Below are positions 33,962 to 39,954 of a stretch of DNA of 55,174 nt, one piece after another. Made by a program: the position numbers and the translations under genes. Numbering within the stretch: the stretch's first letter is position 1; each line of letters opens with the position of its first letter. The DNA is from Actinomycetales bacterium (GTDB taxonomy: Bacteria > Actinomycetota > Actinomycetes > Nanopelagicales > Nanopelagicaceae), in the NCBI GenBank assembly GCA_018969585.1, contig JAGWYB010000005.1, positions 1-55,174 on the forward strand, read 5' to 3'. Under the pieces are notes generated by a model. That model ran no database searches. It was not told the origin of the DNA and saw nothing but the letters and a program-made list of their open reading frames with translations.

Positions 33962-35113
33962 CTACTTAACTGTTACTTGCGGTTCTCCAGAAGCGATTCC
34001 AGCAGCTTCCATCTCATCTGCAATTTTCATTGCCTCTTCAATAAGCGTCTCAACGATTTGTGCCTCAGGTACTGTCTTTATTACTTGACCCTTTACGAAG
34101 ATCTGGCCTTTTCCATTTCCGGATGCCACACCTAGATCTGCTTCCCTCGCTTCACCTGGTCCATTAACAACACATCCCATTACAGCAACCCTGAGCGGAA
34201 CAGTCATTCCTTCAAGACCGGCCTGAACTTTTTCTGCGAGGCTATAAACATCAACCTGTGCTCTTCCGCATGATGGACAAGAAACTATCTCCAATTTTCG
34301 CTGGCGAAGATTTAAAGATTCCAGTATTGAAATTCCAACTTTAACTTCTTCAACGGGCGGAGCTGAAAGTGAAACGCGAATCGTGTCTCCAATGCCTTCG
34401 GACAAGAGAATGCCAAATGCCGTTGCAGATTTGATTGTTCCCTGAAACAACGGTCCGGCCTCTGTCACTCCAAGATGTAGTGGATAGTCACACTTTGATG
34501 CAAGGAGGCGATATGCCTTTACCATGGTTACTGGATCGTGATGTTTTACTGAAATCTTTATGTCGGTGAAACCATGTTCTTCGAATAAACCAATTTCCCA
34601 CATTGCTGATTCAACTAAAGCTTCTGGAGTTGCTTTCCCATATTTAGCTAGAAGTCTTGGATCTAAGGAGCCAGCATTTACTCCAATACGAATCGGAATG
34701 CCAGCATCGCCGGCGGCTTTCGCAACTTCTTTAACCTTGTCATCAAATTGTTTAATGTTGCCCGGATTTACTCTAACTCCGGCGCAGCCCGCATCAATCG
34801 CTGCAAAAATGTACTTTGGTTGAAAATGAATATCTGCGATAACTGGAATCTGTGATTTCTTCGCAATCTGGCTTAACGCATCTGCATCATCCTGACTCGG
34901 TACAGCCACCCTAACTATTTGGCAACCAGATGCGGTCAGTTCTGCGATTTGTTGCAAAGTTGAATTTACATCGGCGGTTAACGTGGTGCACATTGATTGG
35001 ACGCTTACAGGAGCATCTCCGCCCACTAGAACATTGCCGAGTTTGAGTTGCTTAGTTTTACGGCGAGGCGCCAGAGTAGGCAAAGGCGCTTGAGGCATTC
35101 CGAGCTCAACCAT
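33962..35113 (-). CDS. ispG: 4-hydroxy-3-methylbut-2-enyl diphosphate synthase IspG
   Basis: IspG is an iron-sulfur enzyme of the MEP pathway that reduces MEcPP to HMBPP. The 383 aa contain a TIM-barrel N-half ([31 protein letters not shown]) and the cluster cysteines in SCPSCGR and [10 protein letters not shown]. The ATG at 35113 has a TAAGGA ribosome site, preferred over the in-frame TTG at 35131. It follows dxr and rip1 in the common actinobacterial order dxr-rip1-ispG-proS. A bidirectional promoter probably lies in the 90 bp upstream. Confidence 0.97.
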
Positions 35114-35135
35114 GTCCTTATTCTGCCTCAATCGT

Positions 35136-35141
35136 TATAGT
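35136..35141 (+). promoter_or_regulatory. -10 element of microprotein ORF, overlapping an ispG -10
   Basis: TATAGT lies 7 nt before the ATG at 35149, the spacing of a leaderless transcript. The opposite strand reads TATAAC at 35139-35134, a plausible ispG -10. The two form a shared, near-symmetrical bidirectional promoter core. No clear -35 on either side. Confidence 0.4.
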
Positions 35142-35148
35142 TGCTCAA

Positions 35149-35220
35149 ATGAAGCCATGGATAATCGTGAGTTATTTGGTTATTTCTTTACTTCTAATCA
35201 CTTACGTGTACGGATTCTAA
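35149..35220 (+). CDS. Predicted 23-aa single-pass membrane microprotein
   Basis: The short frame encodes MKPWIIVSYLVISLLL followed by ITYVYGF and a TAA. It is almost entirely a hydrophobic helix with one N-terminal Lys, as in known bacterial membrane microproteins. It has a TATAGT box 7 nt upstream, in the leaderless spacing used by other genes here. It ends 3 bases before the stop of convergent rip1, a membrane protease gene. I know of no matching family. It could be a chance frame, so confidence is limited. Confidence 0.4.
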   Translation: MKPWIIVSYLVISLLLITYVYGF

Positions 35221-35223
35221 GTA

Positions 35224-36408
35224 TTAGAGGTTGAAATTAATTGGGTTGAAAATATCTGCTATTAAAAGCAGCGCGGTGAGGAAAATTAAGGCAACAAGAA
35301 CAATTACTGTGATGGGCGTTAATTTTTCGATATCAACTTTTCCGGGCTCAGTCCGACCTCTAATACGGTAAATCTGGCGGCGCGCGCCCTCAAACAGAGC
35401 AACAGCGATATGTCCTCCATCAAGAGGAAGAATCGGAATCAGATTAAATATTCCTACAAAGATATTTAGCGAAGCAATTATCAATAGGAATGTCGCTATC
35501 TTCTCGCCCATCGTCAGATTGGAGCTAGAAGCAGTTTCCCCAGTAGCTCGAGCTACGCCAACGATTCCTACTAAGCCATCGGTGCCGCGCTCTTCACCAA
35601 GAAAAGTTTGTCTTATAAGCGTAGGAATTTGCTGCGGCAAGCCAATCAGCGCCTTTATCGAGCCAACAAAAAGTTGTGCGGTGGCTTCGGCAGATGAACC
35701 AATTGCACTTATTGGATTTTCTTTAACCAGACCGTATTTATTGACAATTCCGATAAAGCCACGATCTTCACCATCTACGGTTCTCGTTGCTGCTACTAAA
35801 TCAATGTTTATCTCAGAGCCATCTCGAAGAATTACTAGGGAGATTTGCTTCCCGGCAGATTCTCTTAGAACAGGAGAAATCTCGCTCCATTCAAGATTGC
35901 GCACGCCGTTTATCCCGACTACTTCATCGCCGGGCAGTAATCCAGCTTGTTTAGCTGGAGAGATTGGGTCACTAGATGTGCACTCAGTCTTTGCGGGAAC
36001 GCAAGGAAGTACCTCTTGAATGATCGGGAGAGATTTAACTACACCCACTCCGGTAAATAATATAAAGAGAAAAAGGAATCCCAGAATGAAATGAAGAACT
36101 GATCCAGAACCAAGGACCACTAACTTTTCGCGGGTTCGAGCTTTGTAGAAAGCGCGATGAGCGATATCGGCAGGCATTTCATCTCGCACAGACATTCCCG
36201 AAATTTTGCAATAACCACCGGCGGGTATGGCTTTGATACCAAACTCCGTCTCGCCGCGCTGAATTGACCATATCCGCTTTCCGAATCCGAGAAAGAATTC
36301 AGTAACCCGCATTCCATAACGCTTTGCGGTTATGTAGTGTCCATATTCATGAACCATAATCGAGAAAAGTAGAGCGAAAACAAAGGCAAGTACTCCGATT
36401 AAGCCCAA
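35224..36408 (-). CDS. rip1: Site-2 intramembrane zinc protease (RseP/Rip1 family)
   Basis: This M50 metalloprotease cleaves membrane-bound anti-sigma factors and other single-pass proteins. The 394 aa have the zinc motif HEYGH near residue 20 in the first membrane helix, a periplasmic PDZ domain (about 130-220, AGLLPGDEVVGINGV), and NLIPILPLDGGHI carrying the third metal ligand near residue 325. The start is TTG with AGGGG upstream. It sits between dxr and ispG as in mycobacteria. The substrate is unknown. Confidence 0.94.
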   Translation of the reverse strand: MGLIGVLAFVFALLFSIMVHEYGHYITAKRYGMRVTEFFLGFGKRIWSIQRGETEFGIKAIPAGGYCKISGMSVRDEMPADIAHRAFYKARTREKLVVLGSGSVLHFILGFLFLFILFTGVGVVKSLPIIQEVLPCVPAKTECTSSDPISPAKQAGLLPGDEVVGINGVRNLEWSEISPVLRESAGKQISLVILRDGSEINIDLVAATRTVDGEDRGFIGIVNKYGLVKENPISAIGSSAEATAQLFVGSIKALIGLPQQIPTLIRQTFLGEERGTDGLVGIVGVARATGETASSSNLTMGEKIATFLLIIASLNIFVGIFNLIPILPLDGGHIAVALFEGARRQIYRIRGRTEPGKVDIEKLTPITVIVLVALIFLTALLLIADIFNPINFNL

Positions 36409-37618: not shown

Positions 37619-38959
37619 ATGGAATCCGGCCCAAAACTCGCTCAAGTTCGCAAAGTTGTAACTCAAATTCCTGGTCCAAAATCTGAAGCTTTGGTTAAGC
37701 GAAGAGGCGAGGCAGTTTCTGCCGGTCTAGGTATGGCTGTTCCGGTAGTGGTTGAGCGCGCGGGCGGCGGAGTTATTATCGATGTGGATGGAAATTCCAT
37801 AATTGATATGGGTGCAGGTATCGCTGTTGTAAGTGTCGGTAATTCCGCTACGCGAGTTGTTAAGCGTGTCATCGAGCAAGTAGAAGCATTTACTCATACC
37901 TGTTTTATGGTCGCGCCCTACGAGGGATACATCGAAGTAAGTGAAGCCCTAAATCGACTAACTCCTGGTTCACATAAGAAGAAGTCCGCTTTATTCACCT
38001 CCGGTGCGGAGGCGCTGGAGAACGCAGTAAAAATTGCTCGCAAATTTACTAATCGACAGGCAGTTGTTGTTTTCGAACATGGTTATCACGGCCGAACCAA
38101 TCTAACGATGGGAATGACCGCAAAAAACATTCCATATAAAGATGGCTTTGGGCCGTTCGCCCCAGAGATTTATCGAATGCCAATGGCTTATCCATTTCGT
38201 TGGCCGGGCGGTGCTGATGCATGTGCCAAAGATGCATTAGACACAGTTATTCATAAAATTGAAAAAGAAATTGGCGCGAAGAACGTCGCATGCATAGTAA
38301 TTGAACCAATTCAAGGCGAAGGTGGCTTTATCGTCCCACCAAAAGGCTTTCTTCCTGGGCTTGTTAAGTTTTCTAAAGATAATGGGATCGTCTTTATCGC
38401 AGATGAAGTTCAAACTGGTTTTGCACGCACCGGCGATATGTTCGGATGCGATGATGAAGGAATCGTCCCAGACTTAATCACTACCGCTAAAGGAATCGCA
38501 GGCGGATTACCGCTAGCTGGCGTAACTGGAAGAGCAGAAATTATGGATTCTGTTCATGCTGGTGGTCTTGGTGGAACTTATGGTGGATCTCCGATTGCCT
38601 GCGCTGCGGCCCTCGGCGCAATTGAAACTATCGAAGAAGAAAATCTTGTTGATAGAGCTCGTGAGCAAGGCAAGATAATTTCGTCTGCACTTCAGGAGAT
38701 GAAAAAGAAATATCCAATTATTGGCGATGTTCGTGGCCGAGGCGCGATGCAGGCGCTGGAATTTGTAAAACCCGGCACGATGGAACCAAACACTGAAGCC
38801 CAATCTTCAATTATTAAGTATTGTCTACAAAAAGGCGTTCTGCTTCTATCGGCAGGAACTTACGGAAATGTAATTCGATTACTTCCGCCGCTCGTAATGC
38901 CGGATGATCTGTTGAAAGAAGCTCTATCTATTCTCGATGAAGCAATCGCAAAGGCTTAG
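37619..38959 (+). CDS. gabT: 4-aminobutyrate aminotransferase
   Basis: This class III PLP aminotransferase is expected to convert GABA and 2-oxoglutarate to succinate semialdehyde and glutamate. The 446 aa contain TSGAEALENAVKIAR, EHGYHGRTNLTMGMT, IADEVQTGFARTG and the PLP lysine in TTAKGIAGGLPLAG near residue 291. It lies convergent to agmatinase, sharing a TTAG stop overlap at 38956-38959, and next to a putrescine transporter and aldehyde dehydrogenase. It may also accept putrescine, since no separate putrescine aminotransferase is seen. Confidence 0.92.
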   Translation: MESGPKLAQVRKVVTQIPGPKSEALVKRRGEAVSAGLGMAVPVVVERAGGGVIIDVDGNSIIDMGAGIAVVSVGNSATRVVKRVIEQVEAFTHTCFMVAPYEGYIEVSEALNRLTPGSHKKKSALFTSGAEALENAVKIARKFTNRQAVVVFEHGYHGRTNLTMGMTAKNIPYKDGFGPFAPEIYRMPMAYPFRWPGGADACAKDALDTVIHKIEKEIGAKNVACIVIEPIQGEGGFIVPPKGFLPGLVKFSKDNGIVFIADEVQTGFARTGDMFGCDDEGIVPDLITTAKGIAGGLPLAGVTGRAEIMDSVHAGGLGGTYGGSPIACAAALGAIETIEEENLVDRAREQGKIISSALQEMKKKYPIIGDVRGRGAMQALEFVKPGTMEPNTEAQSSIIKYCLQKGVLLLSAGTYGNVIRLLPPLVMPDDLLKEALSILDEAIAKA

Positions 38960-39954
38960 CGATCCAATAAATTCTGCGTCGGTGAGTAGGTTTCACTGCT
39001 TCTTCGCTTGGCTATCGCGCTCAGCGCCTCTAAAACAACTCGATTAGCCAAGATCGCAGTTATATCTGCGCTATCAAATGGCGGACAAACTTCAACTACA
39101 TCTATCCCGACTATCGGTAATTCCAAACAAATTCTCCGGACTGCTTCTAGTAATTCTCGGGATGTCATTCCGCCAGGTTCTGGAGTGCCAGTTCCAGGAG
39201 CCATACCTGGATCTACAACATCTATATCAACAGATAGAAATACTCCATCACAGCCATCAGTAAGGCGAACAAAAGACTCATCTAAAACACTCTTCAGTCC
39301 CCGGTGGTGAATTTCAGTCATTTCATATGAACGCATACCTTTGTCACGCATCCAGTCCAAAGTCTTGGAATCTGGCCAATAACCGCGTAGACCAAGTTGT
39401 AGGAATCTATCGCCACGAACGTCACCAGAATCAATTAATCGACGCATCGGAGTTCCGTGGCCAACAAGTGCGCCAAACTGAACTTCCCCGGTATCTGCAT
39501 GAGCATCAAAATGAATCATTGAAATTTTCCCCTTGCCACGATGCGCTGCAATTCCAGCGACATCAGCGGAAGCTATGGAGTGATCTCCGCCAAGAACCAC
39601 CGCAATCGCACCGGAGCGCGAAATTTTCTCCGTTGCAGCTTTCAAGACTTCTAGCGAGGAAACTAAGTCACCTGGTGGCATCATTAGATCGCCAGCGTCA
39701 ACTACCTTCAAACTTTTTAGTCCGTCAATCCGTAAAGCTAAATGTGGCCGCTCTCCATCGTGCGGTAGATAGTCACCCATCCGTATTGCTTGTGGGCCAA
39801 ACTTTGCACCCGAACGATGTGAAGTTCCACTATCAATGGGGGCGCCAACAATTACGACGTCAGCGCCCTTAAATGTTTCAGGTTTATCCAAATCGCATGC
39901 CGGCACGCCAAGAAACGTGAAGTTCGGGCCATACATGTTGCCGATATTGGTCAC
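38956..39954 (-). CDS. speB: Agmatinase/ureohydrolase family protein
   Basis: This is a binuclear-manganese ureohydrolase. The 332 aa carry the metal-binding motifs GGDHSIA, IHFDAHADTG and SVDIDVVDPGMAPGTG. Agmatinase (agmatine to putrescine and urea) is the likeliest activity. Guanidinobutyrase, which would yield GABA directly for GabT, fits the neighbours equally well. The start is a GTG just after trpB2; an ATG six codons in is possible. It is last in the pot cluster. Confidence 0.85.
   Translation of the reverse strand: MTNIGNMYGPNFTFLGVPACDLDKPETFKGADVVIVGAPIDSGTSHRSGAKFGPQAIRMGDYLPHDGERPHLALRIDGLKSLKVVDAGDLMMPPGDLVSSLEVLKAATEKISRSGAIAVVLGGDHSIASADVAGIAAHRGKGKISMIHFDAHADTGEVQFGALVGHGTPMRRLIDSGDVRGDRFLQLGLRGYWPDSKTLDWMRDKGMRSYEMTEIHHRGLKSVLDESFVRLTDGCDGVFLSVDIDVVDPGMAPGTGTPEPGGMTSRELLEAVRRICLELPIVGIDVVEVCPPFDSADITAILANRVVLEALSAIAKRRSSETYSPTQNLLDR

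Follow-up and report, generated by a model that had tools for sequence, protein, structure and literature searches.

The plus strand of the window, i.e., the whole stretch of 55,174 nucleotides analysed here, almost certainly carries a genuine protein-coding gene at 35149..35220, which would encode a microprotein of 23 amino acids (MKPWIIVSYLVISLLLITYVYGF) and ends in TAA. The complete account favoured here, in which this coding gene was gained once, is expressed without a leader and specifies a single-span accessory peptide, was assigned a probability of roughly 0.5. A membrane microprotein candidate with a leaderless-type promoter had been proposed at this position in an initial annotation, and strong comparative evidence now supports that proposal.

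Direct reading of the window placed the ATG at 35149 and the stop codon at 35218–35220, in agreement with the initial description of a 23-residue frame on the strand opposite to its neighbours; dxr, rip1, ispG and proS, in that order, all lie on the minus strand. The convergent neighbour, rip1 (35224..36408, minus strand), encodes a site-2 (RIP) metalloprotease, matched by TIGR00054 at 152 bits against a cut-off of 147.55, while the divergent neighbour, ispG (33962..35113, minus strand), matched TIGR00612 at 422 bits (cut-off 280). The microgene stop and the convergent rip1 stop, which reads TTA on the plus strand at 35224–35226, are separated by the 3 bp first noted (35221..35223, assigned to neither strand); the stop codons of G014 and G018 instead overlap, as CTAG. 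The start of ispG was re-set to ATG 35113, chosen from the conserved block that follows this ATG at junctions across the family, and a probable -10 box (CAGAAT on the minus strand, 35120..35125) stands 6 nt before it. By eye, a GGCAGAAT-like box can be recognised ahead of the ispG start at most junctions in the family, and ispG looks leaderless with a promoter of its own, even where rip1 abuts. The mechanically chosen ispG start, TTG 35131, is probably wrong, ATG 35113 with CAGAAT recurring family-wide. The source assembly comprises 1.10 Mb in 67 contigs and is 81% complete.

The coding status of the microgene was examined as the initial annotation had recommended, by a search of syntenic loci combined with dN/dS, and this showed the frame to be intact in eight genomes and under purifying selection. 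Values of dN/dS lay between 0.00 and 0.20 in 16 of 28 carrier pairs, the remaining 12 being saturated at synonymous sites; G006 and G014 differed at 9 bases, of which 9 were synonymous and none caused a replacement. Variable columns at the first, second and third codon positions numbered 13, 6 and 20 respectively (22 columns each). Over four independent pairs, which share no branch, there were 14 residue differences, against a mean of 32.2 in neutral simulations that placed the same number of base changes at random; none of 20,000 runs was as low. The G000/G013 pair by itself was not significant (1,835 of 20,000 simulated runs as low). In the same four pairs, the other two plus-strand frames showed 34 and 33 amino-acid differences. 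Chance occurrence of the frame was excluded by the low dN/dS and by the small number of residue changes, relative both to simulation and to the other frames. An overlapping frame of 40 amino acids (35112–35234) is open in all eight genomes across the microgene region, yet was rejected with 33 differences versus 14.

From codon 2 through the stop there were no indels among the eight carriers, and the bases after the stop could be aligned only with gaps; TAA, TGA and TAG each occur as stop codons. Eight positions (K2, P3, W4, Y9, L16, T18, V20 and Y21) were invariant across six distinct peptide sequences, which indicates that specific side chains matter, beyond hydrophobicity. The G008 peptide is extended by two residues at its N terminus (MKLKPW...) and terminates in SH instead of GF. 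The next large gene on the plus strand begins at 37619, beyond rip1 and dxr; since there is no large same-strand gene before that point, the microgene was rejected as a leader peptide.

Within the genus, rip1 was found in 21 of 24 genomes and its junction with ispG could be read in 20 (G001, consisting of three overlapping loci, was counted once). Eight of these junctions carried the microgene (G000, G006, G008, G011, G012, G013, G014 and G018), which was convergent with rip1 in every carrier; the other 12 were gapless, the rip1 stop abutting the ispG promoter block approximately 14 bp before the ispG ATG. The genomes in which the junction was not readable (G004, G007, G021 and G023) gave no microgene match at E < 1, and one chance match in G007 (E = 9.71). 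Beyond the genus, 36 junctions representing a further 15 genera of the same family, drawn from 100 other-genus genomes having rip1, were read by eye and contained no similar frame; here the interval up to the start of the ispG query ranged from -9 to 70 bp.

Phylogenetic analysis of rip1 and ispG (29 rows) placed all eight carriers on one side of one branch with support of 59/70, so that a single change accounts for their distribution; without G008, which is a fragment, the other seven held together at 100/97. The simplest history would be a single gain at the rip1-ispG junction inside one genus of Nanopelagicaceae, with subsequent retention through purifying selection; that the change was a gain is argued from the gapless junctions of the outgroups. 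De novo birth is possible. On a more speculative reading, thought less likely than not, the microgene was born de novo at a gapless junction, recruited a promoter of the leaderless type and became subject to strong purifying selection, all within one genus; by the same tentative reading, the gapless ancestral junction remains readable in sister species of a streamlined, DNA-losing lineage. The T content of the microgene was 32–40% in the eight carriers, versus 28% on the plus strand of the window, and T-rich DNA has been described as giving rise to membrane peptides in yeast (PMC7005711). The test for de novo origin found no orthologous non-coding ancestral sequence, the non-carrier junctions being without intervening DNA, and a DNA search for the source of the insert among the 24 genomes of the genus returned, outside the carrier junctions, short matches with E values of at least 0.025.

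It was thought rather unlikely that the microgene belongs instead to an older family of microproteins, fast-evolving or horizontally acquired, with relatives so short that they escape detection. No homologue was found beyond the carrier clade, a result bounded by the length of the peptide, since 23 residues hold little signal, and by the sampling of the class, which extended to 394 genomes. Against an older family, a peptide HMM applied to 296 family genomes matched the eight carriers alone at E ≤ 0.02 (all E ≤ 2.4e-14), and no relative was found in the others. In the class sample there was one strong match, in the window's own genome, and two weak matches, both inside longer frames. An exact degenerate pattern, scanned against 84,980 species genomes (possibly without the window's own genome), returned seven loci, all of them at the rip1-ispG junction; by their rip1 and ispG identities, these correspond to G006, G008, G011–G014 and G018. 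The exact pattern had no match in viral contigs, which disfavours an origin from phage. Among the weaker HMM matches outside the carriers (E = 0.03–10), 30 loci (L036–L065) were inspected at the point where each fitted the consensus best, and these showed unrelated or longer frames. The most peptide-like among them was L055 (G031, LTPLRWMSYMLIALGLINWTYQS).

Expression of the microgene probably depends on a -10 box, TATAGT (TAnnnT), at 35136..35141 on the plus strand, 7 nt upstream of the ATG, i.e., a promoter of the leaderless type. The spacing of this box had been remarked upon initially, and the comparison bore it out: TAnnnT was retained upstream of the ATG in eight of eight carriers, the interval being 6 nt in G008 and 7 nt in the other seven. 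The carrier boxes read TATAGT, TAGAGT or TAAAAT, varying at the three middle bases, and no paired -35/-10 site was detected in 34950–35600. In Mycobacterium smegmatis, TANNNT is reported to occur 7–12 bp upstream of start sites with no conserved -35 element, leaderless mRNAs are frequent and 40.5% of 5' UTRs are shorter than 10 nt (PMC5741613). Given the conserved TAnnnT at 6–7 nt, the microgene would have its own -10-only promoter, producing a leaderless mRNA. The promoter boxes of ispG and the microgene are arranged back-to-back, approximately 10 bp apart; in G008 (L021/L067) about 28 extra bases lie between them. Across the window, TAnnnT occurred 5–8 nt ahead of 8 of 41 starts (the microgene counted), versus 3.6% of random positions, where the list of starts rests mostly on mechanical start choice; this enrichment suggests that leaderless expression may be widespread in the genome. 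A -10 box beside an ATG, without a ribosome site, may flag other tiny genes in actinobacteria.

The initial annotation had described the product as a hydrophobic helix with an N-terminal Lys. Lys2 is indeed present, and the best 17-residue mean hydropathy (2.35) was the highest among 273 ATG frames of 18–45 amino acids in the window. The runners-up were close (2.26 and 2.24), and hydrophobicity by itself is therefore not proof of a gene. Two other very hydrophobic, short ATG frames were seen at 39222 (minus strand) and 7212 (plus strand), both of which overlap longer frames. Judged by hydropathy alone, the peptide has a single hydrophobic span; its layout, with Lys2 and Trp4 followed by a hydrophobic run and an aromatic end, suggests N-in/C-out insertion of a predicted membrane peptide, in which Lys2 would stay inside while the aromatic YVYGF end would face outwards.

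The most likely role, held with moderate confidence, is that of a putative accessory single-span subunit of some membrane protein. In such an accessory or regulatory capacity, the small peptide would pack through its helix on a larger membrane protein and tune the stability or activity of that protein. A specific contact is argued from the invariant polar and aromatic side chains. However, the conserved residues were not clustered on one helical face (shuffles scored as high in 59.5% of cases), and this counts against a simple packing model, which might predict such clustering. CydX, KdpF, AcrZ and MgtR are single-span accessory peptides of approximately 20–50 residues with one hydrophobic span. 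The microprotein resembles them in size range and in its one span; unlike them, it has no detectable sequence kinship with these peptides and its gene is not beside the gene of a target complex. Searches of NCBIfam and Pfam found no relative, giving one chance-level match each (E = 0.25 and 0.31); three PHROGs matches (E = 0.19–0.31) were likewise at chance level, and the peptide matched nothing in PADLOC or among PDB sequences.

The initial annotation had also raised a functional link with the adjacent site-2 protease. A generic role as S2P substrate is conceivable for the predicted membrane peptide, while the specific partnership was not supported. That the microprotein is a dedicated regulator or substrate of Rip1 is very unlikely, despite the adjoining genes and a predicted N-in/C-out topology that leaves almost nothing outside and would suit S2P proteases. 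Substrates of these enzymes are generally N-in/C-out, and Escherichia coli RseP is described as cleaving small single-span membrane proteins (PMC10470546); the microprotein is like these in its single span, predicted type II topology and tiny outside part, and its sequence, with Lys2 and then hydrophobic residues through to the end, is compatible with the topology predicted for an S2P substrate. A difference from the RseP substrates is that the microgene and the protease gene do not co-occur: of the 121 family genomes sampled, 114 had rip1, versus 8 of 296 with the microgene. Being convergent, rip1 and the microgene do not form one operon and would not be co-transcribed. There was also no shift in rate; the ratios of rip1 to ispG distance were 3.0–9.2 among carriers and 3.4–11.1 among non-carriers, overlapping ranges that were obtained from within-group pairs with an ispG distance > 0.02 in seven of eight carriers and seven of 12 non-carriers (G008, G001, G002, G003, G010 and G022 were excluded). 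Rip1 as the preferred partner was not supported, there being no reason for it, and its adjacency would reflect the insert having happened to land there.

Type I toxins such as Ibs, TisB and Hok are very short and hydrophobic, and in size and hydrophobicity the microprotein is like them. A toxin-like peptide that depolarises the membrane, restrained by antisense transcription, might be envisaged here, since read-through from rip1 would generate RNA complementary to the mRNA of the microgene. This reading was considered improbable. A search for cis TAnnnT promoters found none on the antisense strand at an offset shared by at least six of the eight carriers, and a leaderless mRNA would lack the 5' region on which an antitoxin RNA could act. 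Unlike the genes of these toxins, the microgene showed neither a conserved antisense TAnnnT promoter nor a conserved structured RNA; the microprotein further differs in its conserved Pro, Trp, Tyr and Thr positions and in being confined to a single, vertically inherited locus bound to one clade, with no match among viral contigs or in PADLOC. The search for RNA structure returned a covariation term of 0, with 3 of 16 predicted pairs changed on both sides, and conserved RNA structure was rejected in the absence of any covariation signal. The same result weighs against the notion that the conserved element is RNA or DNA (an antisense RNA to rip1, a terminator or an insulated ispG promoter) and the frame incidental. 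The insert does separate ispG from rip1, and ispG retains its -10-like box; however, changes are concentrated at third codon positions and preserve the amino acids, while the one terminator-like site in 34950–35600 compares with 0.8 in shuffles. Such an element was judged exceedingly improbable, and the reading of the microgene as a coding gene for an accessory membrane peptide is preferred.

A search of the open-licence literature turned up no description of this microprotein family, and nothing on Nanopelagicaceae together with small proteins or leaderless transcripts. The kind of object is known and the phylogenetic setting is unusually clear. In Enterobacteriaceae alone, a preprint describes 67,297 clusters of intergenic frames under selection, mostly hydrophobic (PMC11188072); like these ismORFs, the microgene is short, intergenic, lineage-restricted and under purifying selection, and its product hydrophobic and probably transmembrane. 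Unlike the ismORFs, it belongs to another phylum and to a small, streamlined genome, has a leaderless-type promoter and is convergent with rip1. Annotation routinely misses tiny genes, and here a case of 23 codons concerns a genome-reduced freshwater lineage. Carriers and gapless non-carriers within one genus provide a clean case for the birth of bacterial membrane genes, and such a locus also lets one ask what new membrane genes first do. Two loci with repeats were seen in the course of the survey. In G082 (L098), which belongs to another genus, the gap between rip1 and ispG is filled by a short tandem repeat of TAGGAACCTT units, an example of how the junction may possibly expand. In G035 (L103), ATGGTTGAA-like units recur at the 5' end of ispG, with several ATG codons among them.
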